From a virus, in the IMG/VR virus record IMGVR_UViG_3300035180_000124, positions 1 to 58,428 of that record: a stretch of DNA of 58,428 nt; one strand, 5' to 3'. A program made the position numbers and the translations under genes. The notes beneath the pieces were generated by a model, which saw nothing but the letters and a program-made list of their open reading frames with translations, made no database searches and was not told the origin of the DNA. This document shows, one piece after another, positions 5,666-46,171 of the stretch (position 1 is its first letter; every line of letters starts with the position of its first letter).

Positions 5666-5920
5666 TCAGCATTTCCATCGGGCTAGTGAAGCAGCCTTGC
5701 GTGTGGGCTTGCCGCTATCGTCTTTCATTGGGCCGGGCATACCTGCCATACGTGCGCAAAACGACTTCTTACGTGGGCCACCTTCGGGCTGGGGAGCCTT
5801 TAGATTTGAGCCGGTAGCAGCGTTGTACTTGGCGCGCCCTTTGGCTGTAAGCCCCGCCCCCTTAGAGACCGGTAGCTTCTCGCCGCGACCTACTGCAAGG
5901 GATGGATTCTTCTTAGCCAT
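5666..5920 (-). CDS. DUF6321-like small basic protein
   Basis: 84 residues, strongly basic. The sequence has the recognisable course of a conserved small phage family: KKNPSLAVGRGEKLPVSK, GLTAKGRAKYN, GGPRKKSFCARM, then MPGPMKDDSGKPTRKAASLA and a terminal RWKC. I associate this with the family known as DUF6321. No function is established to my knowledge. Two Cys (FCARM and the terminal Cys) are conserved-looking. It overlaps the preceding gene by eight bases. Confidence 0.65.
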   Translation of the reverse strand: MAKKNPSLAVGRGEKLPVSKGAGLTAKGRAKYNAATGSNLKAPQPEGGPRKKSFCARMAGMPGPMKDDSGKPTRKAASLARWKC

Positions 5921-16337: not shown

Positions 16338-16433
16338 AGCTTTTCTGGCCAATAGACTGGTGTACTAAAAAACTACCACCCCGAAACCCGCGCCAATACT
16401 AGCGTTAGGCCAAAGCAGGGCAAAACAGCCAGC

Positions 16434-16467
16434 TATATATATACTTAAAGAAAAGTATTTATATATA
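16434..16467. repeat. AT-rich inverted repeat (possible DNA unwinding element)
   Basis: TATATATATACTT opposes AAGTATTTATATATA with a short bulge. It is the most AT-rich stretch of the early intergenic region and could be an unwinding element or promoter core. Confidence 0.45.
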
Positions 16468-16684
16468 AGAGCAAACGTAAATGTGTACGTACGTATATCC
16501 GTACTACTTACCTACGGGGGGTGTAGGCTATAACCCCAGAATTGCTGGATGTCTTGCCCTGCTCAGCGTAAGTCGTTGATTCCATTGACTTTTCCGGTGG
16601 CAGAAATTTAGTACACCTGTCTACACACCGGCCAATTTCATAATGTGGAACCAAAATAGATTGTACAATGTGTGCATAGGAGAA

Positions 16685-16702
16685 ATGGGACACCTGTCCC
16701 AC
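16685..16702. promoter_or_regulatory. palindrome copy 4 (ATGGGACACCTGTCCCAC)
   Basis: Loop ACCT, outermost pair lost (A instead of G). It is followed five bases later by the conserved leader element shared with copy 5. Confidence 0.75.
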
Positions 16703-16706
16703 CATA

Positions 16707-16740
16707 AAACGGTTAGCAGCGTGCCGACTCACGCCGCACT
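16707..16740 (+). ncRNA. conserved leader hairpin element, copy A
   Basis: AAACGGTTAGCAGC leads into the hairpin GCAGCGTG-CCGACT-CACGCCGC (16716-16737), then ACT. Copy B lies at 17671-17704. Between copies one stem pair changes from G-C to C-G (compensatory), the loop is almost unchanged, and both sit just after a palindrome and just before a ribosome site. This is a cis-acting leader, not a separate RNA gene. Confidence 0.6.
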
Positions 16741-16758
16741 AGAAACTAGGAGATAGAC

Positions 16759-16944
16759 ATGACAAGTGTTATTAAAACCGAGCAATTAGCCCGCCTCCGG
16801 GCGCTCCGCGACGACATCGCCAAACGTACCAATCACGACCGAGCAGAGCGCCTCAGAAAACAAAGGGAGGCCGAGACCATCAGCGACTATTGGATGGCCT
16901 ACACCCAGCGCACGACCAAGCGTGCAGGAAGGGGTGCACGATGA
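16759..16944 (+). CDS. small basic early protein
   Basis: 61 residues with ribosome site AGGAG. Highly charged and helical (EQLARLRALRDDIAKR; RAERLRKQREAE), ending in a basic tail (RTTKRAGRGAR). It is a possible nucleic-acid or RNA-polymerase-binding peptide. Its stop overlaps the next start (ATGA). It is the first of four coupled genes behind leader element A. Confidence 0.6.
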   Translation: MTSVIKTEQLARLRALRDDIAKRTNHDRAERLRKQREAETISDYWMAYTQRTTKRAGRGAR

Positions 16945-17180
16945 AAATCAAACCCGAACACCTAGCGCACCTACGTGACGCCATAGCCCAGCACGACACA
17001 GACTTCCATCGCTCACGCTACGCCGCAGCAGGACTAACCACCATGCGCTACCAATGGGACTTAGTGCGCCACGCTGGCCTTATGCCGTGGCTGTGCGACA
17101 CGCTGTACCAATACCTGAACGATACGCATATCCAAACCGCGCTCAACCGCATCGTCAAACCCCTAGGAGAAACCAAATGA
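16941..17180 (+). CDS. small early protein, conserved-looking
   Basis: 79 residues from ATG at 16941 (ATGA overlap; GGAAGGGG upstream); a longer in-frame reading from 16890 is rejected. The pattern KPEHLAHLRDAIAQHD, RSRYAAAGLTTMRYQWDLV and YLNDTHIQTALNRIVK is of a type seen in small proteins of proteobacterial phages. Its last residues GETK are encoded by the ribosome site of the next gene. Function unknown. Confidence 0.6.
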   Translation: MKIKPEHLAHLRDAIAQHDTDFHRSRYAAAGLTTMRYQWDLVRHAGLMPWLCDTLYQYLNDTHIQTALNRIVKPLGETK

Positions 17181-17398
17181 AAACCAAGTACCGCGTAGAA
17201 GTGGAAGTCCTATACACCCAGCACATCGACGTGGAGGCCGACAGTATGGAAGAAGCAGAGGCAACCGCGCTAGACCAGTTCGATGTCAACCAAGCGTCCG
17301 AAACCGACAGCCGCATCCATTGGACTACAAACCTCGACAACCCGTCATGGCTCGACCAACCCATACCTTTCACACCAACCCAAGGAGAAACCAAATGA
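17177..17398 (+). CDS. small acidic early protein
   Basis: 73 residues from ATG at 17177 (ATGA overlap). The start KTKYRVEVEVLYTQHIDVEA then SMEEAEATALDQF has the strand-helix pattern of small regulatory or inhibitor-like proteins. It ends in QGETK, the same junction as its upstream neighbour, because the AGGAGAAACCAA ribosome site overlaps the coding end. Function unknown. Confidence 0.6.
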   Translation: MKTKYRVEVEVLYTQHIDVEADSMEEAEATALDQFDVNQASETDSRIHWTTNLDNPSWLDQPIPFTPTQGETK

Positions 17399-17619
17399 CA
17401 GCACTCACAACCCCTCACCAAATCTCAACCTACCGCCTAGCAACGCTGCGCACCGCCCTCAAACTGGAGAAACTCGGCATGAACATGAGCCGAGGCCCCA
17501 GCGCCCTGTCCATCCTGCGTGGCATGGGCTACAAGGGCAAGCGAGACGCCATCCTTGCGCAGGTGACCAAGGACGTGGCCGACGCGATAGCGGCGATGGA
17601 ACAGAACGTCGCAAGCTGA
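17395..17619 (+). CDS. small early protein
   Basis: 74 residues from ATG at 17395, ATGA overlap, ribosome site AAGGAG. The helical centre (STYRLATLRTALKLEKLG) is followed by a turn-rich part (GPSALSILRGMGYKGKRD) and a C-terminal helix. The pattern SALSILRGMGYKGKR resembles small phage proteins of unknown role. Last gene of this unit; palindrome copy 5 starts 14 bases after its stop. Confidence 0.6.
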   Translation: MTALTTPHQISTYRLATLRTALKLEKLGMNMSRGPSALSILRGMGYKGKRDAILAQVTKDVADAIAAMEQNVAS

Positions 17620-17632
17620 CGGGTGTCAACAA

Positions 17633-17650
17633 GTGGGACAGGTGTCCCAC
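17633..17650. promoter_or_regulatory. palindrome copy 5 (GTGGGACAGGTGTCCCAC)
   Basis: Perfect stem arms with AGGT loop; flank GTCAACAA on the left matches copy 1. It is followed by a second hairpin (17651-17670) and by leader element B. Confidence 0.8.
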
Positions 17651-17670
17651 CCAACGGTGTTCACCGTTGG
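17651..17670. repeat. hairpin CCAACGGTG-TT-CACCGTTGG
   Basis: A perfect 9-bp inverted repeat with a two-base centre, directly after palindrome copy 5. It is absent from the copy 4 leader, so it looks like an insertion into the common leader layout. Confidence 0.6.
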
Positions 17671-17704
17671 AAACGGTTAGCAGCCTGCCGTCTCAGGCTG
17701 CACT
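17671..17704 (+). ncRNA. conserved leader hairpin element, copy B
   Basis: AAACGGTTAGCAGC leads into the 8-bp hairpin GCAGCCTG-CCGTCT-CAGGCTGC (17680-17701), then ACT, 18 bases before the start of the 577-residue gene. It matches copy A with one compensatory stem change and one loop change. Part of the mRNA leader. Confidence 0.6.
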
Positions 17705-17722
17705 TGTAACGAGGAATAGAAA

Positions 17723-19456
17723 ATGACATACGAAACCAACCTGAGCACTGCGCAACGACTCATGACCTGCTTGGAGATGTACTCACGCATCAACCGCTTC
17801 ATGGCGGAGCACAACGCCTTCATGGCCGAGCCAGACGTTTTCAAACTGCGCACTCTGAGCAAAAAAGTGGGCGCGGGCACCGCATCGGTTAAGGAGGATA
17901 CGCACGTCATATGGGTGTACGAGTACTACATGTACCTAGAGAACGACAAGGGCTACAACGGGGAGTCACGTATCCTCGAACTGCGCACAGCCCTGAACGA
18001 CCTCAACACCTTCAGGTTCCCCCGGCCACCGACACAGGCTTACCTAGCAGGGGTGCACCGGGAGCGCATGGAGCGCTTGACTAGCCCGCGTAATGTGGTT
18101 GTCCACTATGCCAGAGCGCTTGCTGGCCGGGAGTGGCACCATCGGGAGCAGAATCGCGGGTACATTCATAATGCTGTGTTCCGTGCATGGGACTGTGCGC
18201 AGCCCGACAGTACCGAGCAGCTCGTGATGGAGTGGCCGCGTGTCAGCAAGCAGGGTGACCACATGATCGCCTATACCCGCGACGAGAAGTACGGCGAGGC
18301 TGACCGCCAACTGACCACATCGGTCGGCAAGTATCTGGCGCGGCACTTCCCCGCGCTTAGCTCCAACGTCATCCGTGACATTGCTGCGCTGTACGTCGAG
18401 GCCGATATCGAGATCACGCACGACCACGCCATGATGATGGAGATTATCGAGAACGGCCCCGGCTCTTGCATGAGCGGCGAGTCGGACGGGTTCTCCGGTT
18501 GTGGCGACCATCACCCCTACGAGGCGTACGACCCGAAGTATGGCTGGCACATGGCGTACATCAAGGAGGGTAACAGTTTCACGGGTCGCGCACTACTCAA
18601 CGACGACAAGTGGGTGCGCACATACCGGGGCAGCAACCGGCAGAGCTACTCGGACACAGACGAGCGACTCAACGCATGGTTGCGTGAGCAGGGGTACAGC
18701 AAGGCGCATGACTGGAAGGGGTACAAGCTGGCACGCATCGACGTGCGCAACGACTGCGGGTTCGTGGCCCCGTACCTAGACGGCGGCAGCAAGGACGTTG
18801 AACTGCACCGCGACCATCTGTTGGTAGTAGGCTCCGGTGACGGCGAGTACGACTGCTGCAACACGGACGGTAACGCAGACGAGCGCAATAGTTGCAGCTG
18901 CGGTTGCTGCGGTAACCGCACGAGCGAGGACGAATTATTCAGTGTCGGTCGGCATGGTGACGAGAGCGTGTGTTTGAACTGCTACGAGAACGACTACACC
19001 ACGGTGTATGGGCGCAGGGGCGAGCAGTATGCGATACCCAACAGTGACGCTATCGAGGCTGACGGCGAGTACTACGACCCCGCGTGGCTGTCCGACAATG
19101 ACATCGTGGAGTTACATGACGGCGACTACACATACCGGGGCAGCGTAACGTGGATCGAGAGCGTGAGTGCGTACTACCCATCCGACTCGGATGACATCTG
19201 CTACACCAAGGCAGGCGATAACGAGATGCGTGACGACTGCGTAGAGCTGGCCGATGGCGAGTGGTGCTTGACCGATGAGGCGTGGATGTGCGAGCACAGC
19301 GGTGACTGGTACGCCGATGACGTTGACTACGTGACGACCAAAGGCGGCAAACGTATCCATCCCGACCATGCCGACGAGTACATCCTAGAGAACGCCGAGC
19401 AGCAAGAGCTGCCCCTTGAGCTAAGTGAGACACCTGTCCCACTGACAACAATCTAA
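17723..19456 (+). CDS. large Cys-rich, acidic early protein of unknown function
   Basis: 577 residues. The first ~230 are helical. A middle block (GPGSCMSGESDGF, HHPYEAYDPKYGWHMAYIK, YSDTDERLNAWLREQGYSK) looks like an enzyme-like or binding fold with a conspicuous SCMSG. Then comes a Cys-rich part (SCSCGCCGNRTSEDE, then CLNCYEND) suited to zinc. The last ~150 residues repeat D/E-rich strand units around W, C and Y (GEWCLTDEAWMCEHSGDWY). The C-terminal part is very acidic and could mimic DNA or bind metal. It follows leader B and is tied to the peptidase gene by a 14-base gap. No family is recognised. Confidence 0.65.
   Translation: MTYETNLSTAQRLMTCLEMYSRINRFMAEHNAFMAEPDVFKLRTLSKKVGAGTASVKEDTHVIWVYEYYMYLENDKGYNGESRILELRTALNDLNTFRFPRPPTQAYLAGVHRERMERLTSPRNVVVHYARALAGREWHHREQNRGYIHNAVFRAWDCAQPDSTEQLVMEWPRVSKQGDHMIAYTRDEKYGEADRQLTTSVGKYLARHFPALSSNVIRDIAALYVEADIEITHDHAMMMEIIENGPGSCMSGESDGFSGCGDHHPYEAYDPKYGWHMAYIKEGNSFTGRALLNDDKWVRTYRGSNRQSYSDTDERLNAWLREQGYSKAHDWKGYKLARIDVRNDCGFVAPYLDGGSKDVELHRDHLLVVGSGDGEYDCCNTDGNADERNSCSCGCCGNRTSEDELFSVGRHGDESVCLNCYENDYTTVYGRRGEQYAIPNSDAIEADGEYYDPAWLSDNDIVELHDGDYTYRGSVTWIESVSAYYPSDSDDICYTKAGDNEMRDDCVELADGEWCLTDEAWMCEHSGDWYADDVDYVTTKGGKRIHPDHADEYILENAEQQELPLELSETPVPLTTI
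19425..19442. promoter_or_regulatory. palindrome copy 6, degenerate (GTGAGACACCTGTCCCAC)
   Basis: It differs from the consensus by one base in the left arm and lies within the final codons of the 577-residue gene, just before its stop. The gene is thus flanked by copies 5 and 6. Confidence 0.6.
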
Positions 19457-23265: not shown

Positions 23266-23513
23266 AACTCGTAGCAGGCAACCCAAACCTAATGAAGGTC
23301 AACAAGTCCGTGGGCCTTGGCACCTTTGCCCAGACAGCCGGTGACTTAGGCCAAGTCAAAGTACGTCGGGGATATGTGCCCACTGAGCGTGATCCTAGCC
23401 TTGTGCCACCAGCCACGAACTCATTGTGGTCACAACCAACTTACAAGCCAGACCACAGCGCCTACCAGCGCCCCGGCTCTGACCACTCACACATTAAACG
23501 CAGGGGGTTCTGA
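23262..23513 (+). CDS. small early protein, TTG start
   Basis: 83 residues beginning at TTG (TTGA overlap) with GAGGAG upstream. The first half is a compact GTFAQTAGDLGQVKVRRGY. The second half is Pro/Ser/His-rich and probably flexible. Not recognised. The non-ATG start at an overlap is the same arrangement as in the late gene at 1416-1607. Confidence 0.55.
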   Translation: MKLVAGNPNLMKVNKSVGLGTFAQTAGDLGQVKVRRGYVPTERDPSLVPPATNSLWSQPTYKPDHSAYQRPGSDHSHIKRRGF

Positions 23514-32182: not shown

Positions 32183-33187
32183 ATGAGCAAAGTTTCCTTA
32201 TTTAACCCCTCGAACGTACCTGCGTTCGCTCGCAACAACGTGCTGTCCGAGACGGCAATGGCCCTGACGGGCGGTAGCTCCGGCGGCGCTGCCGGTAAGC
32301 GTATCTCGATCAAGGGCGGCGTGTTCCGTCTGATGGATAACGGCAAGGAAGTTGCCGCCATTGAAGACCGTCACCTCGACATCATCATCGTCAAGGCAGC
32401 ACCCAAAGTGGGCCGTCAGTTCTACGCTGCTGCGTACGACAAGGATGCTACAGCCGCAGCGCCTGATTGCTCCTCCAACGATGGCGAGCGTCCTGACCCT
32501 TCCGCTAAGAACAAGCAGTCCGAGACTTGCCTGTCGTGCCCACAGAACCAAGCCGGTTCCGGTACGGGTAATAGCCGCGCCTGCCGCTACCAGCAGCGTC
32601 TGGCTGTGGTGCTTGAGAACGACATGGGCGGTTCCGTCATGCAGATGGTGTTGCCCGCTACGTCGATCTTCGGCAAGGCAGATGGCGACAAGCATCCGCT
32701 GCAGTCCTTCGCCCGTTACTTGGCTGCGCAGAACCCACCGATCAACCCCGAGCAGATCGTGACCCGCATGAAGTTCGACACGAAGTCGGAGTCCCCCAGG
32801 CTGCACTTTGCTCCAACCCGTTGGTTGACGGACGACGAGTACGAAGTCATTCAAGACCAAGCCGATAGCGATGATGCCAAGAAGGCTATCGTGATGAATG
32901 CAGCGCAGACAGACGGCGTGAAGGCGGCACCTCTGGCTATCGCCGGTAAGCCCCCAGTAAAGGCTATCCCAGCGCCTGCACCGGAGGAAGATGACGAGGA
33001 AGTGGCCGCACGTTTGGCGGTAGCCAAGCCCCCCAAGAAGCCTAAATTCACTCCCGCACCCGTGGTCGAAGAGGAAGAAGACACGGCTCCTGAGCCCGAG
33101 GTACGCAAGGCCCCATCCAAGGCTACTGCAGTTCCTGCAACCAAGGCAAGCCTCGCAGACATCGTGTCTGACTGGGACGACGAGTAA
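32183..33187 (+). CDS. candidate single-stranded DNA-binding protein
   Basis: 334 residues from ATG at 32183, GAGG ahead. The first ~220 residues look like one beta-rich domain (RISIKGGVFRLMD; HLDIIIVKAAPKVG; RYQQRLAVVLE) holding a Cys set spaced C-x19-C-x2-C-x14-C, probably a zinc-binding insert. The C-terminal 110 residues are Pro/Ala/Glu-rich and disordered, ending in a strongly acidic SDWDDE tip, as in SSB-type proteins that recruit partners. Position between helicase and PrimPol fits. Family similarity was not tested. Confidence 0.55.
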   Translation: MSKVSLFNPSNVPAFARNNVLSETAMALTGGSSGGAAGKRISIKGGVFRLMDNGKEVAAIEDRHLDIIIVKAAPKVGRQFYAAAYDKDATAAAPDCSSNDGERPDPSAKNKQSETCLSCPQNQAGSGTGNSRACRYQQRLAVVLENDMGGSVMQMVLPATSIFGKADGDKHPLQSFARYLAAQNPPINPEQIVTRMKFDTKSESPRLHFAPTRWLTDDEYEVIQDQADSDDAKKAIVMNAAQTDGVKAAPLAIAGKPPVKAIPAPAPEEDDEEVAARLAVAKPPKKPKFTPAPVVEEEEDTAPEPEVRKAPSKATAVPATKASLADIVSDWDDE

Positions 33188-36704: not shown

Positions 36705-36876
36705 GCTGGAACGGGGGCAGGGATTCTTTGTCCCCTGCCTAGACCCCGAAGCAGTAAAGGAAGACGGCCTTAAAAAAGCTGTCTTCCTGCACATGTTCGA
36801 TGCCCACGCTAAGGTGGGCATCCGTAGGGGGCTCATGGGGGTGTGGTTCTACCGGCGCCCTCTTCCACCCGCCTGA
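36673..36876 (+). CDS. small protein at the end of the early region
   Basis: 67 residues. ATG lies 32 bases inside the PrimPol end. LVVRYPWTELERGQGFFVPC suits a small strand-rich fold, followed by AVFLHMFDAHAKVGIRRG and a C-terminal WFYRRPL. The stop lies inside the convergent minus-strand gene, a 44-bp tail-to-tail overlap. Unknown family. Confidence 0.6.
   Translation: MSLVVRYPWTELERGQGFFVPCLDPEAVKEDGLKKAVFLHMFDAHAKVGIRRGLMGVWFYRRPLPPA
36799..36822. repeat. hairpin at the convergent gene junction
   Basis: GATGCCCAC-GCTAAG-GTGGGCATC, a perfect 9-bp stem 11 bases beyond the stop of the 3112-residue gene and inside the early gene end. On the minus strand a run of six T is about 20 bases further, too far for a classic terminator. 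It may help end late transcription or protect the mRNA end. Confidence 0.5.
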
Positions 36877-39800
36877 TGGCCTTCAGGTAACGCTCGGACT
36901 GTAGCTGACGTTGCGCGTTCAAGGTGTCAATTCGTTTTTCCTTGGCATCAGATGGCGCGTTGGAACTGCGGATTATGTCTTCCTGCGTACGCAGCGTTCC
37001 CATGAACTTCTGATACTGCAACGCCATCGGCGCAACTGCGATCTCAGCGCGGTGCTCACGCAAATAGTCCTTGGCGTCTTCGATCTTTCCGGTCTTGCGG
37101 TAGTTGTCGAAAGTTCGCTTAGCTTCCATTGCATCCGTGGCCAGCTTGTACACAACGTCGGCTTCCTCACCGCCGTACTTGCGCTGGAACGAGCTGCCAA
37201 TCAGCGGCATCTCGGACAGCTTGCGGGTGGGCTCGGCCTTGCCTTCGCGGAACATTTCGTTGGTAGTAGCCACCACCATCAGTGGTATTTGCCCCAAGTA
37301 ACCGGACACAATGTGCTCGATCTGGATAGGGGACAGGCCCGGAACCATCTTGGCCATGAACTTGGCCAGCTCAGTGGTGTTGGAGTTGTACTGCGCCACA
37401 GGGTCTAGCTTCTCTAAACGGGCAGATACCAACGGGTTGCCTGAGTAGAAGTTTTTGTTGGCGTATACCTCGGCTATGGGCTTGATGATCTGAGGCATGC
37501 CCATGTTGCTGGAACCGGGGATAGCGCTCACAAACATGTCTTTCAGCGCACGAAGTTGTTGAGGTGTGTCTACCTCGCCTTTCATGGCGTCAACAGCAGC
37601 CACGCCTGCCGAGAAGAAGAAGCCGAACTCGTACGGGATAGGCAGCTTGATAGGCTCATCTACACCGGGAAGGTGTAAGAAGAAGTTGCTGTACCGATCT
37701 TTAGGCTTGGCGTTTTTGTAGTAATCGTCGTCGTCCATAGCCATTGCGTAGGCGATGCCGAACCCGGTCAACAGCATGGCATTGTTGAAGAACTTGCGCT
37801 TGATCTTCAGCACGTCGTTGGCCGGCATGTTGCCCGTGGCTGCTTTGAACAGTACGCTCAAACCCTGAATCTGCGCGTTGAAGAACGGTATCATGCGGCT
37901 GGCGTACTGCACGGTAGGCGAGAGGCCGCGCTTGGAGAAGTTCATCGACTCCCGCACTGAATGGCTGGCTTCGACTTCAGACAGGCCGTTTTTAATAGCG
38001 TTTTCGTAGATCAGCGCACGGGTAGCGACATCGGCCTGTAGCGCCAGCTTATCGGCCTTAGCAAACAGCTTGTCAAGAACGCCTTGAGACTTGCCGCTGG
38101 CCAACTGCAGCGCGATCTTGGACATGTTGGCCGGGTCGCCCTCGAACAAACCGGACTGCATCAAGCCCTTCTCAACCATCTTGGCACCGGCTTCGCTCTT
38201 GCCAGTGGCAATCTTCAGGAACTCCTTGTTGGCCTTGAAGATGGCAGTGAGCGGGCCGTAGTCCAGACCGGAAGTAGCCGTAGCTGCGAACGGGTCGCGG
38301 AACAATTGACGGGCCAAGTAGATGGGGGTGCGAGTGACACCAGAACGCAACAGATCACCGGCGATGCCACCCCACTTCAGGAACGCAGGCAGCGTCAGGT
38401 GTGCGCCTTCCAAGGACTTGATAATCAGTTCCGCAGGAACGCCGCCAAACATTGTTTCCGTGGTTTGAACGCGCAGCCAGCGATCTCCCTTGTCTTCAGA
38501 CTTGTTAGGGTCAGGCTCTTGCGTCCAGCGGATAACGCTGGCATCGGCAGGGGCTTTTCCGCTGTGGATTGGCATTAGGTTAGTGGGCTTGCCCATCTTA
38601 TCGACGGAGCCAAGACCTTGGCCTGCAGCTTGCATCGCGTAGCCTACGTTCTTCATGGCCATGTTGTTCATGCCCTTAGTGACCAGCAGCATGGTATTGC
38701 GCATGATCGACTTGTCCAAAGGCATGATCTTGCTCTCGCCGCCTTTGAGTTCAGCAAGGTACGGTTGATGCGTTATGTCGCCAATCGTGAGCGTCTTCTC
38801 ACCGCCAAAGACCAACTCAGCCACGCCGTCGGCACGAACGCGGTAGTAGGGAACGTAGTCCTCATCCTTCAAGTACGCCTTGGCGTCGGCCTGCGTAATA
38901 GCTGCCACCTGTGGGGAGGACAGCCACTCAATCATGCCCCGGTTGTAGGCGTTGTACTTGGTGCGGGCATTCTCCAGCGCTGCCTTGAGCTTGGGGTCGG
39001 AATTGGCCACAGCCATAGCGTCTTGCAACTCTTGCTCGGTAACACCGAGAGCGCCTAGGTCAAGCTTCTTCAAGCCTTTGTTCATCGCACGTTGGGCGAT
39101 CATGTACGCAGAAGCTAACCCCATTTTGGCTTCGGTATTGCCGTAACTATCCGGGATGTCCTGCACGGCGTCGAATATAGCACCGGCATCGTTCTTCATG
39201 GAGCTACGAACTTCGTAGTAGCCCTTGGAGTCTTTGAACATCTCGGGGGGCCCGTTGCTGAGCGCCATCTGGGTAATAGCGCCGTGCTGATCTGCAGCGG
39301 TAATGCTGAAGATAGCCTGACGGAAGTCCCGTGTGCTGCCCATAGTGTTCGGGTCTTCAACAGCGTTGTTCAGCGCCTTGATAACACCGGCACGCATATC
39401 AGCGGTCTGCATCTCGATCTGCAGCGCGATGTTGGAGCCTGCCTTCTCACGCAAGGTCTTTGGTTGTGCAACTGCACGTTCTGCCAACTTGGACAGAGCG
39501 TCGTCGGACTTGTACTTAGCAACGCGGGAAAACAACGGGCCTTCAGCAGGGCCAATAGGTTGCAAATTAGTGCCTAGTATTTCAGGCTTAACACCAATGA
39601 ACGCACGTTCAACGTATTCGCCACCTTCATTATTTTGCTCAATGGCGTCTATGCCTGCCGCTTTTAGAACTCGCGTTGCCTCGTCAACGCCAAGTTTTTC
39701 CCGTATGTCAAAAAATAAACCGTTGGCGGGGTACTTACCTTCTTGTTCAGCACGTTGTTTAGCGTACCTGTCCCCGTACTGTTCAAACAGAGCATCAAGT

Positions 39801-42800
39801 TTTGGCCTATCACCGACAATGAAATCAGAGTTAACTTTGTACACACGTTCTTCAGGAACGTCGTCCAATGTGCGGTACAAGTTGCCTTGTTTGGGGCGCT
39901 CTTTGAGCCCTTTTATTTTTGAAACATCAAGCGTGTTGACCGCATCTAAACGTGCTTGCGTGGTATACAAGTTTGCTTCTAGCCTGACTACTGCCGCAGC
40001 ATTTTTACCTGATACTACAGATGCTGCAGGCAACCCCGTTTTTTTAGATACAGGCCCCGTCAAATACTTAGCCAAACGTTGCTTGGTATCGGCAATATCA
40101 CTTTCCAAACGTTTTTTGGTGTCGGCAATGTACTCGACAGCCGCTTTATTTTCTTTTGGGTTTAATGCACCCCCTTCTTGCACACCGCGCAGGTAGCGTG
40201 TTAAAAGATTAGATTCGTATCTTGTACGAACTTCTTTGGAAGACAAGTCACCAACGCTGGTAGACATGTACTTCTCGTCCAAGTCACGGAACTGCTGGTA
40301 TGACATATCCCCATAACCCGTAGCGTTGGACGCTTTACCAAAAGTAACTGCGGTCTGGTAATACTCAGCGTAGTCTTTGTCTGCGGTTACGTACGGCCCA
40401 ACACCAAGCGATTTTTCGCGTTCAAAGCGACGGTCAAAAGCCCCCTCACCTTCCCCCGCAAAATTGGTATCAAACGCCGTAAACTTGGCGTCTGAGCCGT
40501 GCCATGTGCCTTGCAATTCCAATTGGGCACAACCGTAAGCAAAGTTAACTAGGTCGCCCGCTTTAAGGCCCGAGGAATTTATATCAAATACCGCGAGCGC
40601 TTTCTTAAACGCATCGACCACCATTTTTAACCAGTTGTGTATGGCGGTTCGGTTAACGGCACCTGTTGGTTGGATACCCGCCTTAATAGCTTCTTCTACG
40701 GCGTACGCAATAATTTCGTCGTCTACTTGGTTAACGGGAGTTTCCGCAGCTTCTACACGGGCAAGCGCCGCTTTACCAATTTTGGACTCAATAGAACCGT
40801 CATTACGTTTAGCCCAGTTTTTAACCGTGGTGGAAATAGCGTTGTACTGCGCCGGATTAAAAAAGTTACGGAAACCGATGTGCGCTCCGACTTCGTGCAG
40901 CGTAACGCCGAGCGCCTCGCCCTTACCGATGTTGTCCGCAAATAAGAAGGCTTGTTCTTTGTGCACAAGCCCTTTAACATCTGACGGAACCTTACCTTTG
41001 GTTGTGGGGTACGCTTTTGTAAAGTCGTCAACGGACTTAAACACAGTCAGTTTTGCGGGTTTTTTATCGCTGTGCGTTTTTTCTTTTGGTATCACAATGC
41101 CTGCTTCAGCAAGCTCGGCTGTAACGCTCTCAACAGTAGACGCATTTGTCGGTTTACCGCGAGAAAATTCAACGCCTTCTAAGATTGGGCCAGACGCCTC
41201 TGCCTGACGCTGCTCTTCAGCTTCTTTGAGAGCCAGCGCATCTTTACCGGACTGCGCCTCTTCCACGCTCTTTCGTGCAGACGCCACTGCAGCGTTGGTT
41301 TCTTTCTGGCTCTTCGTGACTTCAGCAACAACGGCCTGTTTGTCGGCAACGGTTCCCTTGAGTCCTGCTTCCTGCTCTTGCAAGCCCTTGAATAGCTCCG
41401 TGTAACGGTTGCCTTTCTTTGCCTTGTTGTTGTCGCGCAAATACTGCATGCGGTCTTGCAAAGCTTTCAGTTCTGCACGGGCGCCCGCCAACTCGCTCAA
41501 CGCCTCTTGTGCAACTTTTGCACGGTCAGAAGGACGCTTGCGCTCACCGGACTCAGATACTCGGCCAGTACGGACATCAACAACTGCACTGCCTGCCCTC
41601 GGTGCGGCAAGGGTCGCAGGGATTTCGCCAGCTTTCTCTTGGCGCTTTCTTGCAATCAAATCGTAGCCTGCGGCTTGGGCTTCATCAAAAGCTTTTTCAA
41701 GCTCAAGCTGCCCTTGTTCTTTGATCTCAGTCGTAATGCGCGGGGCGTTTTCGTACACCGCTTCTAGATCAACAGCAGCCTGACTACGTTTTGTTTTAAG
41801 GTCGGCAATCTTTCCCTTACCTTCGGCGGTCAGCTTGTTTTTCGGGTCTTGTAGCGTTTCCAGTTGGGCATCAAACGACCCCAGCTTGCTTCGGATGCCG
41901 AGAATGCGTTGCTTGAGTTCGGATACGTCCTGCGTTACGCGAGTACCCGGCAAGTCCATCCCCTCGCGCCCGCGTTGCAATGCTGTCCGCCATGTGGCCA
42001 TTGGAGTGGCTTGGCTGGTAACAGCCTCTTCAACAGGTTTGGCCGGTTCTTTCAATTCTTGGCGTTGAGCTGCTTCAAACGCTTTGGTAAGTCTGTTAAT
42101 TTTTTCTGTAGCTTTATTTGCTTCTGACAACAAAGACTCACGTACGGTGCTGTCGGCTACGTGTTGATTAACCAAACCATTGAGGTCAGTGCGTGCTTTG
42201 TCAACGGTGCTTTTAGCAAAACGTACTGCGGCGGTCAGGCGGTTAATTTCTTTAGTTAAAGAAGCTTTGCCCGCCAGCGCTTGTTTAAGCTCAAGCAATT
42301 CTTTGACTTTATTTGCGGAAAACACCGCGTTTAAATTTTCTCCTACCAACCCCATGTGGTCGCTAATATTTTTAATCGAAGTAGCGTTGGGGCTTGTTGA
42401 AAAGTATTTTGCTTTTTTCTGTTGTTCTTTCAAACGATCTAAAAGCGCGGTTCTTTCCGCTGGGTTTTTATCAGCAATTGCCAGTAAGCGATCAACTTGC
42501 TGTACCAGTTCTTTCTTCTGGCTTTCGTTAAGCCCCGCCATTTGTGCTCGAATATCTTTAAGCAACGTCACGCGTGCGGGGATACTTTGCAAAGCGGTTT
42601 CAAGCTCCACAACTTTACGCACCGCAGACGCGTACCACTCGGGTTCACCGCGCTCTTTGTCCGCACTTGCCAGCAAAGGCCCTGCTTTTTCTTTGGCCTT
42701 TTTAAGCGCGACTTCGGCTTGTTGGGCTGCGGTCTTGGCAGGTTGCAAGCTGTCCCGTACCGTTTGCAAAGCTGTTTGATTGTCAGCTTTTTGCTGCGCA

Positions 42801-45800
42801 ATTGTTTCTTGCATCCCTTGCACGTTTTTGGAATCCAGCATCTTCTGGAAATTTTCCGGCGTGACACGCAACGTCTGGACTTCAGCTTCTGGAAAAAGAG
42901 CCCGTTGCTGTTGTGCGCTGGTTCTTTGCAAGTCTTCTGGTGTAGCGCCGGGTTGTGCGGCACTTTGACGGCCTTCCTCTTGTACCCTAATCATGTCGCC
43001 CAGTTCACGTACCGCAAACTGGTCTGGTAAGTTCCCCTCCATAACGCGCTGCACTTGCTCACGTGCCAGCGCCGTGAAGTCTTTGTTAGACGTGTTAGGC
43101 AGTGCGTCACGTAGTTGGTTCAGCAGTTGTACAGAAGCCTCGTTGGTCTTTGCTGTAGTAACCCCTGATTTTTCTTCAGCCAATAGCTGTGCAATATCGC
43201 TAAAACTTTTTACTTTTTCTGGCGGTTTAACCGTGTTTGTGGGTATTGCAGTAGTGCGTGTATCAAGCGTATTCAACACTTGGTCAATCATGTCCAACGT
43301 GTTTTGTTTGTCGTCTTCTGCCAGTTTTGGCTGTTCACGCAGATTAAGAGTTTCTGTAACAGGCTGTGGGCCAGTTGGACGGGCGTAGTCTGTTTGGCGC
43401 AGTTGTCCTTTTTCGTCACGCTCAAGCGTAGGTGTGGCTGACCGAGTTACGGTCTTTTCTTTCATCGTGCCTTGCGTGTCCTTCAACATGCGTTCGGCAG
43501 CGGAAGACACGTTCGTATAAATGTTGGTGCGCATTTGGTCTTGCAGTGCCGCAATAGCGCCTACCGGTGCACCAAACTGACGCTGCCCTATGGGAGCATT
43601 TTTAGGGATGGCTTGGCCCCAACGACTTTGCAGTTCGTTAAAACCTTCCATGACCCTTGCACGGGATTCCCCAATCTCCCATTTCGCCATAGGGGGCAAA
43701 TTAAAAGCAGCGCGACGGGACGCAATCTCCGCCAGATGACTATTCAAATACGCCATCCTTGCAGTGTCCATTAGCGTGGACGACTGGTCTGCCAGCGTAA
43801 TAGGCGGCTTGCCTGCGGCTTCGCGCTTTTTATTAACGTCTGTCAGACGTGCAGACACGTTGGCAGTGTCAGGACGCAGTTTAATTTTTTGCAATTGACC
43901 AACAAACGCCTGCAGCAACTCGCTTTGTTTATCAGCGTGTTGTTCTGCTTCAGCTTCTTGGGCGCGTGATTCGGGCAACTTACCTTCACCCAAAGCGGGC
44001 AAACGATATATTGGCTTACCCGACGCAGCGTTTTCTTCCTGCCTTGCTTTAATGTCTGCGACCTGATCGTTGAGCGAGCCAACAAGTTCCGCGTTTCGCG
44101 TAATTTTTGCAATGGCCAGTTGCGTTTGCAGGTCACGTAAGTGCGCCTGTTCGCCGCCAAGTCCCGACATTATTTGTCCGGGGGTAACTACGCTACCCGT
44201 AGGAAACGTGGCCAAGAGCTTATCAATCGTTTCTTTCTCAGCTCGGTGACGCAGTTCTTCATCCCGTTGCGGCTGCTCCGCAGCGGGGGTATTGGCTTCC
44301 GTTAGTTTTCGTTGTGTGCGGCGTTCTTGAATTTGTTGGTTAACGTATGCGTCGGACTCAGCTCTGGCAGCTTGTTGCGCTCCTTGACGTTGGTCTTCTA
44401 AATCTTTAGCTTTGCGTGCGGCCATTTCTTCCGCAGTTTCAGACGTTGCTTTGAACGGCTGCATTTCAATGGTCTGCTGGGTCGTAGGCACCGCTTGCTG
44501 CTGCAAGTTAAGAATGCTTTGGGACAACTTGGCTGCGGCGGGTACATCGCCCCTGTCTTTGGCTACGCCTAGTTTTTGTTGCAGTTTGGCAATTTGGTCT
44601 TCAACGGGCCTAGGTAACGCTTCAACATCTTTACGAGATTGCATCAGCGCGGTATTGGCTTGTGCGTACTTGGGCGCAAGATCTACAATTTCTTGGGGGC
44701 TAGCGTCTTGCAGTTGAGACTGATATTGCTGAACCAGTTGCTCCAACATCCGTACTTGCTGGCGCGGGTCTGCCTTCGGTTCTACTGCTGCTTCAGGAAC
44801 TTGACGCTCCACGGGCTGGCCAAACATGTCCAAGTCAGGTGTAGCAGGCGCTGCTGCTTCGGGCACCAATGAGGGTTGCTGCAGTTGCGTTGTGTCTTCA
44901 ATGGGTGCAGGAGCGGGGGTTGGCTCAGGAAGAAGGAACCGGCGGTACTTGCGGAACTCTGCGTTGGTTTCTTTCAGTACGTCGGCGTGCTCGGCAAGGG
45001 CTTTCTGGGTTTCGCGGTTGTCCTGCTTCTGGTCTTCCGTAAGCTTGACGCCCTTGCCTGCTCGGTGCATCTGCGCGTCCAACTCGACCTTGCGCTGCTC
45101 TGCCGCTAGGTAGTCTTGCTGCGCCTGAACCGCATACTCGGGAGTTTGCTTCTGGGCTTCTTCAACGGCTGCGGCTTGCTCTGCGGCCTGCGATGCTGCG
45201 GTGCGTGCCTCGACTTGCTTGGTGCGTTCACCCTTATCGAAACGTGTTTGCTCTTGACCGCGTTCAACGTACCGGCCTGCAGGGGCCAAGATACCGCCGA
45301 GGACAGCGCCACCGATGAAGTTGTCAAAATATTCTGCACGGGCATTTGCGTCTGTGATGTTCAGACCGGCCTGCATACGCTCAAACACCTGTTGACCTGC
45401 TTCGGTCAGACCCTCGATACCCATCGTCTTGCCGGTGGATAGCAGGTAATCAGCCGCCGTTTTCTTGATGCCTTCCTTGGCCAAGTCATTTGCGGCTTTG
45501 GCCGACAGGTTAACGCCTGCTTTCTCAAATATCTTGCCGAGGCCGGGGATCATACGCATACTCACGGTATCCAGCGCGGCTTGGGGGATGGACGCCAGCG
45601 CAGCGGCGGTCAGGTCAGTATCGCCCAGTTTCTTGCCTTCTTCGGTTTGGCGTACCAAGTTCGAAGCGGTGAACTGCCCCGCAGAAGCAGCGCCTGCGGC
45701 ACCCAAACCAAGTGCCGTACCCGCAGTCGTCAAACCGCCCAAAATAGGGGCCGCAGCTAGTGCTTCAGGAAGCGCAAGTGCCGCAGCGCCAGCGGCAAGC

Positions 45801-46171
45801 GGAGCTGCCATCCAAGGCAGAGAGCCACCAGCAAGCTCGCCGATCTTAGTCAGCGGTGCTTCAGTCCAGCCCTCAGTGGTCGGGGCGTAGACTTTTTTCT
45901 TGTAGGCTTCCTGCTCGGCAATGTACTTCTCGGCTTCGGGAAGTCCCATGATGCCTGTACGGCCAGCGAGTGCTGCGCCAGCGCCTTTGACGTCTGAAAT
46001 TGCGCCTTTGAGCGAGGGCATGAAGCCCGACTTGGGGCCTTCTTCGGGGGTTTCTGCCGCACCAAATGCTTTTGGGTACAGCCGTTGGGCCTCTGCAAAA
46101 GCTACGTTAGGGTCTTCTCCCTCACGCAAAGGAAACAACGATCCATCTGGTAGTGTGAGGGCTTTTGCCAT
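36833..46171 (-). CDS. 3112-residue polyvalent internal virion protein (zincin and ADP-ribosyltransferase-like)
   Basis: Residues about 115-170 form a hydrophobic Ala/Gly/Leu stretch. About 310-1660 is mostly charged coiled coil with Pro/Gln linkers. A linker with FSR lies at 1669-1671. A zincin-like site HEVGAH is at 1759-1764 with E1819 (DDEIIAYAVEE) as a possible third ligand. An ADP-ribosyltransferase-like region starts GTWHGSD (1888) with GVGPYVTADKDYAEYY and GEYVER (about 2182). A second FSR is at 2214-2216. The C-terminal ~900 residues (MRNTMLLVTKGMNNMAMKN onwards) resemble the large polyvalent-protein-associated part, with a membrane-like LLTGFGIAYAMAM near 2800. Polyvalent proteins are packaged and injected with phage DNA to act on the host. 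It is last in the late operon, after other internal proteins. Domain calls are by motif only. Confidence 0.75.
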   Translation of the reverse strand: MAKALTLPDGSLFPLREGEDPNVAFAEAQRLYPKAFGAAETPEEGPKSGFMPSLKGAISDVKGAGAALAGRTGIMGLPEAEKYIAEQEAYKKKVYAPTTEGWTEAPLTKIGELAGGSLPWMAAPLAAGAAALALPEALAAAPILGGLTTAGTALGLGAAGAASAGQFTASNLVRQTEEGKKLGDTDLTAAALASIPQAALDTVSMRMIPGLGKIFEKAGVNLSAKAANDLAKEGIKKTAADYLLSTGKTMGIEGLTEAGQQVFERMQAGLNITDANARAEYFDNFIGGAVLGGILAPAGRYVERGQEQTRFDKGERTKQVEARTAASQAAEQAAAVEEAQKQTPEYAVQAQQDYLAAEQRKVELDAQMHRAGKGVKLTEDQKQDNRETQKALAEHADVLKETNAEFRKYRRFLLPEPTPAPAPIEDTTQLQQPSLVPEAAAPATPDLDMFGQPVERQVPEAAVEPKADPRQQVRMLEQLVQQYQSQLQDASPQEIVDLAPKYAQANTALMQSRKDVEALPRPVEDQIAKLQQKLGVAKDRGDVPAAAKLSQSILNLQQQAVPTTQQTIEMQPFKATSETAEEMAARKAKDLEDQRQGAQQAARAESDAYVNQQIQERRTQRKLTEANTPAAEQPQRDEELRHRAEKETIDKLLATFPTGSVVTPGQIMSGLGGEQAHLRDLQTQLAIAKITRNAELVGSLNDQVADIKARQEENAASGKPIYRLPALGEGKLPESRAQEAEAEQHADKQSELLQAFVGQLQKIKLRPDTANVSARLTDVNKKREAAGKPPITLADQSSTLMDTARMAYLNSHLAEIASRRAAFNLPPMAKWEIGESRARVMEGFNELQSRWGQAIPKNAPIGQRQFGAPVGAIAALQDQMRTNIYTNVSSAAERMLKDTQGTMKEKTVTRSATPTLERDEKGQLRQTDYARPTGPQPVTETLNLREQPKLAEDDKQNTLDMIDQVLNTLDTRTTAIPTNTVKPPEKVKSFSDIAQLLAEEKSGVTTAKTNEASVQLLNQLRDALPNTSNKDFTALAREQVQRVMEGNLPDQFAVRELGDMIRVQEEGRQSAAQPGATPEDLQRTSAQQQRALFPEAEVQTLRVTPENFQKMLDSKNVQGMQETIAQQKADNQTALQTVRDSLQPAKTAAQQAEVALKKAKEKAGPLLASADKERGEPEWYASAVRKVVELETALQSIPARVTLLKDIRAQMAGLNESQKKELVQQVDRLLAIADKNPAERTALLDRLKEQQKKAKYFSTSPNATSIKNISDHMGLVGENLNAVFSANKVKELLELKQALAGKASLTKEINRLTAAVRFAKSTVDKARTDLNGLVNQHVADSTVRESLLSEANKATEKINRLTKAFEAAQRQELKEPAKPVEEAVTSQATPMATWRTALQRGREGMDLPGTRVTQDVSELKQRILGIRSKLGSFDAQLETLQDPKNKLTAEGKGKIADLKTKRSQAAVDLEAVYENAPRITTEIKEQGQLELEKAFDEAQAAGYDLIARKRQEKAGEIPATLAAPRAGSAVVDVRTGRVSESGERKRPSDRAKVAQEALSELAGARAELKALQDRMQYLRDNNKAKKGNRYTELFKGLQEQEAGLKGTVADKQAVVAEVTKSQKETNAAVASARKSVEEAQSGKDALALKEAEEQRQAEASGPILEGVEFSRGKPTNASTVESVTAELAEAGIVIPKEKTHSDKKPAKLTVFKSVDDFTKAYPTTKGKVPSDVKGLVHKEQAFLFADNIGKGEALGVTLHEVGAHIGFRNFFNPAQYNAISTTVKNWAKRNDGSIESKIGKAALARVEAAETPVNQVDDEIIAYAVEEAIKAGIQPTGAVNRTAIHNWLKMVVDAFKKALAVFDINSSGLKAGDLVNFAYGCAQLELQGTWHGSDAKFTAFDTNFAGEGEGAFDRRFEREKSLGVGPYVTADKDYAEYYQTAVTFGKASNATGYGDMSYQQFRDLDEKYMSTSVGDLSSKEVRTRYESNLLTRYLRGVQEGGALNPKENKAAVEYIADTKKRLESDIADTKQRLAKYLTGPVSKKTGLPAASVVSGKNAAAVVRLEANLYTTQARLDAVNTLDVSKIKGLKERPKQGNLYRTLDDVPEERVYKVNSDFIVGDRPKLDALFEQYGDRYAKQRAEQEGKYPANGLFFDIREKLGVDEATRVLKAAGIDAIEQNNEGGEYVERAFIGVKPEILGTNLQPIGPAEGPLFSRVAKYKSDDALSKLAERAVAQPKTLREKAGSNIALQIEMQTADMRAGVIKALNNAVEDPNTMGSTRDFRQAIFSITAADQHGAITQMALSNGPPEMFKDSKGYYEVRSSMKNDAGAIFDAVQDIPDSYGNTEAKMGLASAYMIAQRAMNKGLKKLDLGALGVTEQELQDAMAVANSDPKLKAALENARTKYNAYNRGMIEWLSSPQVAAITQADAKAYLKDEDYVPYYRVRADGVAELVFGGEKTLTIGDITHQPYLAELKGGESKIMPLDKSIMRNTMLLVTKGMNNMAMKNVGYAMQAAGQGLGSVDKMGKPTNLMPIHSGKAPADASVIRWTQEPDPNKSEDKGDRWLRVQTTETMFGGVPAELIIKSLEGAHLTLPAFLKWGGIAGDLLRSGVTRTPIYLARQLFRDPFAATATSGLDYGPLTAIFKANKEFLKIATGKSEAGAKMVEKGLMQSGLFEGDPANMSKIALQLASGKSQGVLDKLFAKADKLALQADVATRALIYENAIKNGLSEVEASHSVRESMNFSKRGLSPTVQYASRMIPFFNAQIQGLSVLFKAATGNMPANDVLKIKRKFFNNAMLLTGFGIAYAMAMDDDDYYKNAKPKDRYSNFFLHLPGVDEPIKLPIPYEFGFFFSAGVAAVDAMKGEVDTPQQLRALKDMFVSAIPGSSNMGMPQIIKPIAEVYANKNFYSGNPLVSARLEKLDPVAQYNSNTTELAKFMAKMVPGLSPIQIEHIVSGYLGQIPLMVVATTNEMFREGKAEPTRKLSEMPLIGSSFQRKYGGEEADVVYKLATDAMEAKRTFDNYRKTGKIEDAKDYLREHRAEIAVAPMALQYQKFMGTLRTQEDIIRSSNAPSDAKEKRIDTLNAQRQLQSERYLKAIRRVEEGAGRTTPP

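Follow-up and report, generated by a model that had tools for sequence, protein, structure and literature searches.

In a viral record of IMG/VR of 58,428 bases, which is the whole stretch of DNA analysed here and is called the window below, two genes are preceded by the same 28-nt core, placed upstream of the ribosome site and the ATG. Judged from the comparison of about 120 clear natural copies found by scanning IMG/VR, this element is an H-type RNA pseudoknot and not a hairpin alone, since its loop pairs with the conserved 5' flank and this pairing covaries. We consider it rather probable that it works in cis, as a leader pseudoknot placed immediately before the Shine-Dalgarno sequence, and that it sets the efficiency or the timing of translation of a few phage genes.

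The two leaders of the window

A preliminary description of this DNA had pointed to two leaders, at 16707-16740 (copy A) and 17671-17704 (copy B), with the common sequence AAACGGTTAGCAGC, a hairpin with the loop CCGWCT and one compensated stem pair, each following a palindrome and preceding a ribosome site. All of this is indeed present, the stem being of 8 bp: the compensated pair is 16721 G/16732 C in copy A vs. 17685 C/17696 G in copy B, and both copies are preceded by a dyad and followed by a Shine-Dalgarno sequence and an ATG (16759 for copy A and 17723 for copy B). Most of the 34 bases are identical in the two leaders, and the pattern GCAGCSTGCCGWCTCASGCYGCACT, allowing up to three mismatches, has two matches in the window, which are these two leaders, where shuffles expect 0.00. 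Two features had been overlooked, namely an uncompensated pair in copy A (A16718 opposite C16735, where copy B has A-U) and the complementarity of the CGG of the common 5' flank to the CCG of the loop. The parts of both leaders and the genes behind them are as follows, with the basis of each assignment in brackets:

16686-16702, + strand: H1 of copy A, dyad TGGGACACCTGTCCCAC, a predicted RNA hairpin (dyad repeats; upstream-hairpin enrichment)
16710-16712, + strand: copy A, S1 5' strand CGG, predicted to pair with 16724-16726 (S1 covariation in relatives)
16713-16715, + strand: copy A, L1 UUA (conserved UUN)
16716-16723, + strand: copy A, S2 5' arm GCAGCGTG (folding and covariation)
16724-16726, + strand: copy A, S1 3' strand CCG, inside the hairpin loop (S1 covariation)
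16727-16729, + strand: copy A, L3 ACU (alignment of copies)
16730-16737, + strand: copy A, S2 3' arm CACGCCGC, with one A-C mismatch to the 5' arm (folding and alignment)
16748-16753, + strand: Shine-Dalgarno AGGAGA of the gene at 16759
16759-16944, + strand: gene behind copy A, a 61-aa Arg-rich small protein of no known family
17633-17650, + strand: H1 of copy B, dyad GTGGGACAGGTGTCCCAC (dyad repeats, folding)
17651-17670, + strand: second upstream hairpin of copy B, CCAACGGTGTTCACCGTTGG (folding; upstream-hairpin enrichment)
17674-17676, + strand: copy B, S1 5' strand CGG (S1 covariation)
17677-17679, + strand: copy B, L1 UUA (conserved UUN)
17680-17687, + strand: copy B, S2 5' arm GCAGCCTG (folding and covariation)
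17688-17690, + strand: copy B, S1 3' strand CCG (S1 covariation)
17691-17693, + strand: copy B, L3 UCU (alignment of copies)
17694-17701, + strand: copy B, S2 3' arm CAGGCTGC (folding and covariation)
17712-17716, + strand: Shine-Dalgarno AGGAA of the gene at 17723
17723-19456, + strand: gene behind copy B, a 577-aa protein of the family commonest behind the element

When folded, copy B gives the 8-bp stem with a z of -2.97, and copy A gives the stem with its A-C mismatch and a z of -0.86, which is unremarkable by itself. Given that two copies and a single compensated pair are no proof of an RNA structure, we examined relatives of the leaders.

Around the two cores, a weak mini-hairpin CUAG-AAA-CUAG lies 3' of the copy A pseudoknot (16738-16752) and overlaps the Shine-Dalgarno sequence, a similar one, CUUG-UAA-CGAG, occurs in copy B and one phage group only, and the long intergenic stretch before copy A holds a 28-nt inverted repeat, 82% complementary and with its arms 215 nt apart (16353-16623).

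Relatives in IMG/VR and covariation of the fold

Relatives were obtained by pattern scans of the IMG/VR viral contigs. The first scan, with most of the stem fixed, found 11 contigs, and the second, with four pairs freed, found 27. The third pattern, CGGTTNNNNNNNTGCCGTCTCA, leaves six stem pairs free and gave 138 matches in the loci examined, with all six free pairs complementary in 93 of them, five in one, and four or fewer in the rest; the full-stem matches precede a ribosome site and ATG, and the other matches do not. The preliminary description had proposed a search with a covariance model, and the one that we built from 68 copies gave 121 hits of at least 35 bits in 81 loci and none between 35 and 16.5 bits.

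In the first copy set, the flank CGG and the loop CCG were invariant, but both had been fixed by the scan patterns, and therefore we scanned again with flank and loop free (TTHGCRGYSTGNNNTCTCASRCYGC). Flank and loop were complementary in 76 of 76 matches, as CGG/CCG in 68, GGG/CCC in four, TGG/CCA in three and AGG/CCT in one. An additional scan, which excluded C at the first place of S1 and G at its partner, found complementarity in 21 of 22 full-stem elements (16 G-C, four T-A and one A-T, besides one T-C), and mixed flank/loop combinations in the matches lacking the full stem. The U-A versions of S1 occur in two different phage groups (L143/L145 and L147/L148), and the contig L143 carries both a T-A and a G-C version.

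In the gapless alignment A3 of 96 distinct copies, flank and loop are mismatched in only one copy, 99.7% of the cells are paired, with slid controls near background, and changes on both sides are seen in seven of the eight stem pairs and in 8 of 11 pairs overall. The double-changed cells number 188, vs. 48 in shuffles, with 16 vs. 1.6 for the S1 pair 5-21 by itself, the copies being related, so that these counts are not numbers of independent events. None of 100000 permutations reached the observed S1 complementarity, also after collapsing the copies to 56 distinct cores. The earlier proposal of a functional RNA element is thus strongly supported by covariation in relatives, both in the stem-free scan and in the 96-copy alignment.

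The comparison gives a layout with S1 of 3 bp (NGG:CCN'), L1 of UUN, S2 of 8 bp, no L2, and L3 that is mostly UCU, and its second helix is formed by the loop and the flanking strand with covariation, as in H-type pseudoknots. S1 is short, at 3 bp, and only one of these pairs covaries, going through all four Watson-Crick types, the other two being invariant G-C pairs. A fourth S1 pair was dropped, given that the flank and loop bases at that place do not covary (A1, A3), and we do not claim a base triple of L1 with the U17-A26 pair, which would rest on one changed lineage (L015/L021). A scan for copies with this U17-A26 pair changed, which doubles as a control for chance stems, had no full stem among the matches listed, all of them being GC-rich chance matches.

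On the sense strand, the stem cells departing from Watson-Crick pairing are 12 G-U, one A-C and one U-U, and this excess of G-U over A-C of 12 to 1, in cells that are few and related, favours an RNA of the coding strand. It is hardly credible, in spite of the dyad symmetry that both the stem and H1 have, that the element is a double-stranded DNA operator bound by a dimeric regulator, because complementarity is conserved and half-site sequence is not, the S1 pairing crosses the dyad, and all real copies have one orientation relative to the gene. Very improbable, too, is that a phage RNA polymerase uses the element as a hairpin promoter, like those of the N4 virion RNA polymerase, which are small early-region hairpins of single-stranded DNA with a variable stem and a 3-nt loop: a variable stem with a conserved loop, few early-region copies and a short distance to the ATG would suit it, but the loop-to-flank pairing and the sense-strand G-U bias point to RNA. 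Besides, sequence profiles recognised, within their sensitivity, no virion or other RNA polymerase, single-subunit ones included, among the window proteins scanned, and the 3112-aa protein of the window matches only LPD38 and unknown phage families, with no polymerase structure.

The window encodes TerL, portal, PolA, an SNF2-like helicase, a DUF927 primase-like protein, an M28 peptidase and this LPD38 polyvalent protein (36833-46171). Its TerL is about 50% identical to those of Pelagibacter phage HTVC027P, phage DSL-LC04 and phage 023Pt_psg01, and model searches of the whole records found the element absent from these three phages and no significant element in 11 related cultured phages. Consensus leaders compared with cultured phages by similarity search hit by chance only, and the four hits of a genome scan were also chance ones, with stems that pair poorly and without the context of a start codon. 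The element occurs in at least two phage lineages. TerL and portal are common to thirteen element-carrying contigs, and a second element-carrying group (G026) has only replication genes and a few others in common.

Position before genes and the probable role in translation

In 109 of 118 leaders, the stem ends about 13-25 nt before the ATG, with a Shine-Dalgarno-like sequence in between that mostly starts 6-11 nt after the stem, and in most copies the upstream stop codon lies 2-60 nt before the element, sometimes only 2-10 nt. A Shine-Dalgarno match of at least 5/6 is found in 17 of 20 genes behind the element vs. 177 of 476 other conserved genes, a comparison that is biased because the gene caller favoured starts having such a sequence. 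There are one to four copies per contig, and in some cases successive genes, separated by a few hundred bases, each have one (at 5902 and 6184 in L023, and at 7.0 and 7.3 kb in L006). More than 30 unrelated sequence clusters are represented among the genes that follow the element, and the largest of them hold the relatives of the 577-aa protein and those of the 61-aa Arg-rich protein. The 577-aa protein has conserved cysteines and distant relatives in Klebsiella podophages, and its gene is followed by that of the M28 peptidase; it matched no Pfam family, a homologue search in viral contigs was empty, and its model gave no significant match.

Taken together, the placement between stop codon and Shine-Dalgarno sequence, the constant distance to the ATG and the repeats before successive genes favour translation initiation over promoters and antitermination, with the counterweight that a promoter with a short leader would also give a fixed distance to the start codon. 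Position and comparison are the grounds on which the element probably controls translation. The folded pseudoknot would then act at translation initiation, either through a trans-acting RNA-binding protein that, once bound to it, would block the ribosome site, or by itself on the 30S subunit, at the side where the mRNA exits, and the 5' hairpin H1 may insulate or protect the leader. More tentatively, these leaders could be a new family of compact pseudoknots by which one phage or host factor, binding this fold at every one of them, switches the translation of several early genes, that is, a regulon.

The preliminary description had considered recognition by an early phage protein, which may apply, and antitermination, which fits poorly. 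An RNA protein-binding site of the nut or put type, through which a phage factor or the RNA modifies RNA polymerase, would be consistent with an RNA structure having a conserved loop and with one to four copies per contig, lying in the early region in the window; lambda nut and HK022 put sites are early phage RNA hairpins with a conserved loop or in tandem, those of put being two tandem hairpins, and they are not tied to start codons. The element, on the contrary, keeps its short distance to the ATG and precedes successive genes of one operon, as in L023 and L006, and boxA-like sequences show no excess in the window, with none directly 5' of the two copies, all of which makes antitermination unlikely.

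We also regard as rather unlikely a structural 5' barrier without any ligand, in which H1 and the pseudoknot would protect processed transcripts from nucleases or shield the start site from ribosomes that terminate on the gene before it. Both would form one compact structured block, the stop codon upstream is close in most copies, and the conserved unpaired bases could be structural, but simple barriers rarely need such a strict loop and junction sequence, and H1 is missing from many copies. About half of the leaders have a perfect hairpin of 6-10 bp within about 10 nt upstream, far more than in shuffles, and the sequences of these hairpins are variable, differing even within one phage.

In the window, the upstream dyad GGGACASSTGTCCC has six copies in 15.69-19.44 kb (15694, 16130, 16266, 16687, 17635 and 19427), which flank early-region genes, and other phages have different perfect palindromes at the same places. 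Another small inverted repeat, TGACGGGTGTCA, at 17618-17629, lies at or close to the stop codon of the upstream gene, and is also present in L006, L010, L013 and L028.

Returning to control of translation by the pseudoknot, no conserved partner protein was found for the element. A 334-aa protein of the window (32183-33187), in which four cysteines are invariant and the C-terminal tail is acidic, is present in 12 of the 14 element-carrying genomes that we examined, G026 among them; its fold prediction has a pTM of 0.56, and the best PDB matches have E values of 0.07-0.4 (phiC31 RDF, PrgE). That this protein is a single-strand-binding repressor is only a guess. It also has a weak similarity to Gp3-like recombination directionality factors.

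Comparison with known systems

No family of Rfam 15 reaches threshold by covariance-model score, and a literature search, which was not exhaustive, found no published description of the element. To our knowledge, phage leader pseudoknots working in translation are almost unknown beyond the T4-like gene 32. The element offers a well-supported fold, with its natural copies in at least two phage lineages and before many genes, and, owing to the many copies, a regulator, if there is one, could be sought by binding assays and the fold could be solved. The variable stems with a fixed loop and junction are also a good natural data set for the rules of pseudoknots, and, if our reading is true, a shared pseudoknot would be a multi-gene control point at the level of translation.

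The gene 43 operator of T4/RB69 is alike in that a hairpin whose loop is conserved precedes the ribosome site of a phage gene, and differs in having no pseudoknot, in belonging to one gene and in being bound by DNA polymerase (PMC3014915). Closer is the gene 32 leader pseudoknot of T4/RB69, a translational operator bound by gp32, which is likewise an H-type pseudoknot of about 28 nt located 5' of the Shine-Dalgarno sequence in a phage leader, with a sequence that diverges and a fold that is kept (PMC535899, PMC3014915). That pseudoknot lies near -67 (PMC535899, PMC3014915), whereas the element here is about 20 nt from the ATG, and gene 32 has a long UUAAA-repeat region, whereas our element has no UUAAA/UAAA repeats and leaves a gap of only about 6-11 nt between stem and Shine-Dalgarno sequence in most copies. 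The autogenous placement before a single-strand-binding protein gene is also lacking, given that the candidate gene of this kind (32183-33187) has no element and that the element stands before many genes, which are unrelated.

In Cluster K mycobacteriophages, the SAS/ESAS repeats lie just before the start codons of some non-structural genes; about half of the repeats have an additional inverted repeat, and a role in translation is suspected (PMC3203893). They share with our element this repetition at the start codons of a gene subset, and, unlike it, SAS is a 13-bp linear repeat, GGGATAGGAGCCC, with no pseudoknot reported (PMC3203893); in the window, this repeat has one chance-level match, at 23369, and none in the leaders. 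In summary, the T4-type gene 32 pseudoknot and SAS/ESAS are the nearest in kind to the element, which belongs to neither of them.
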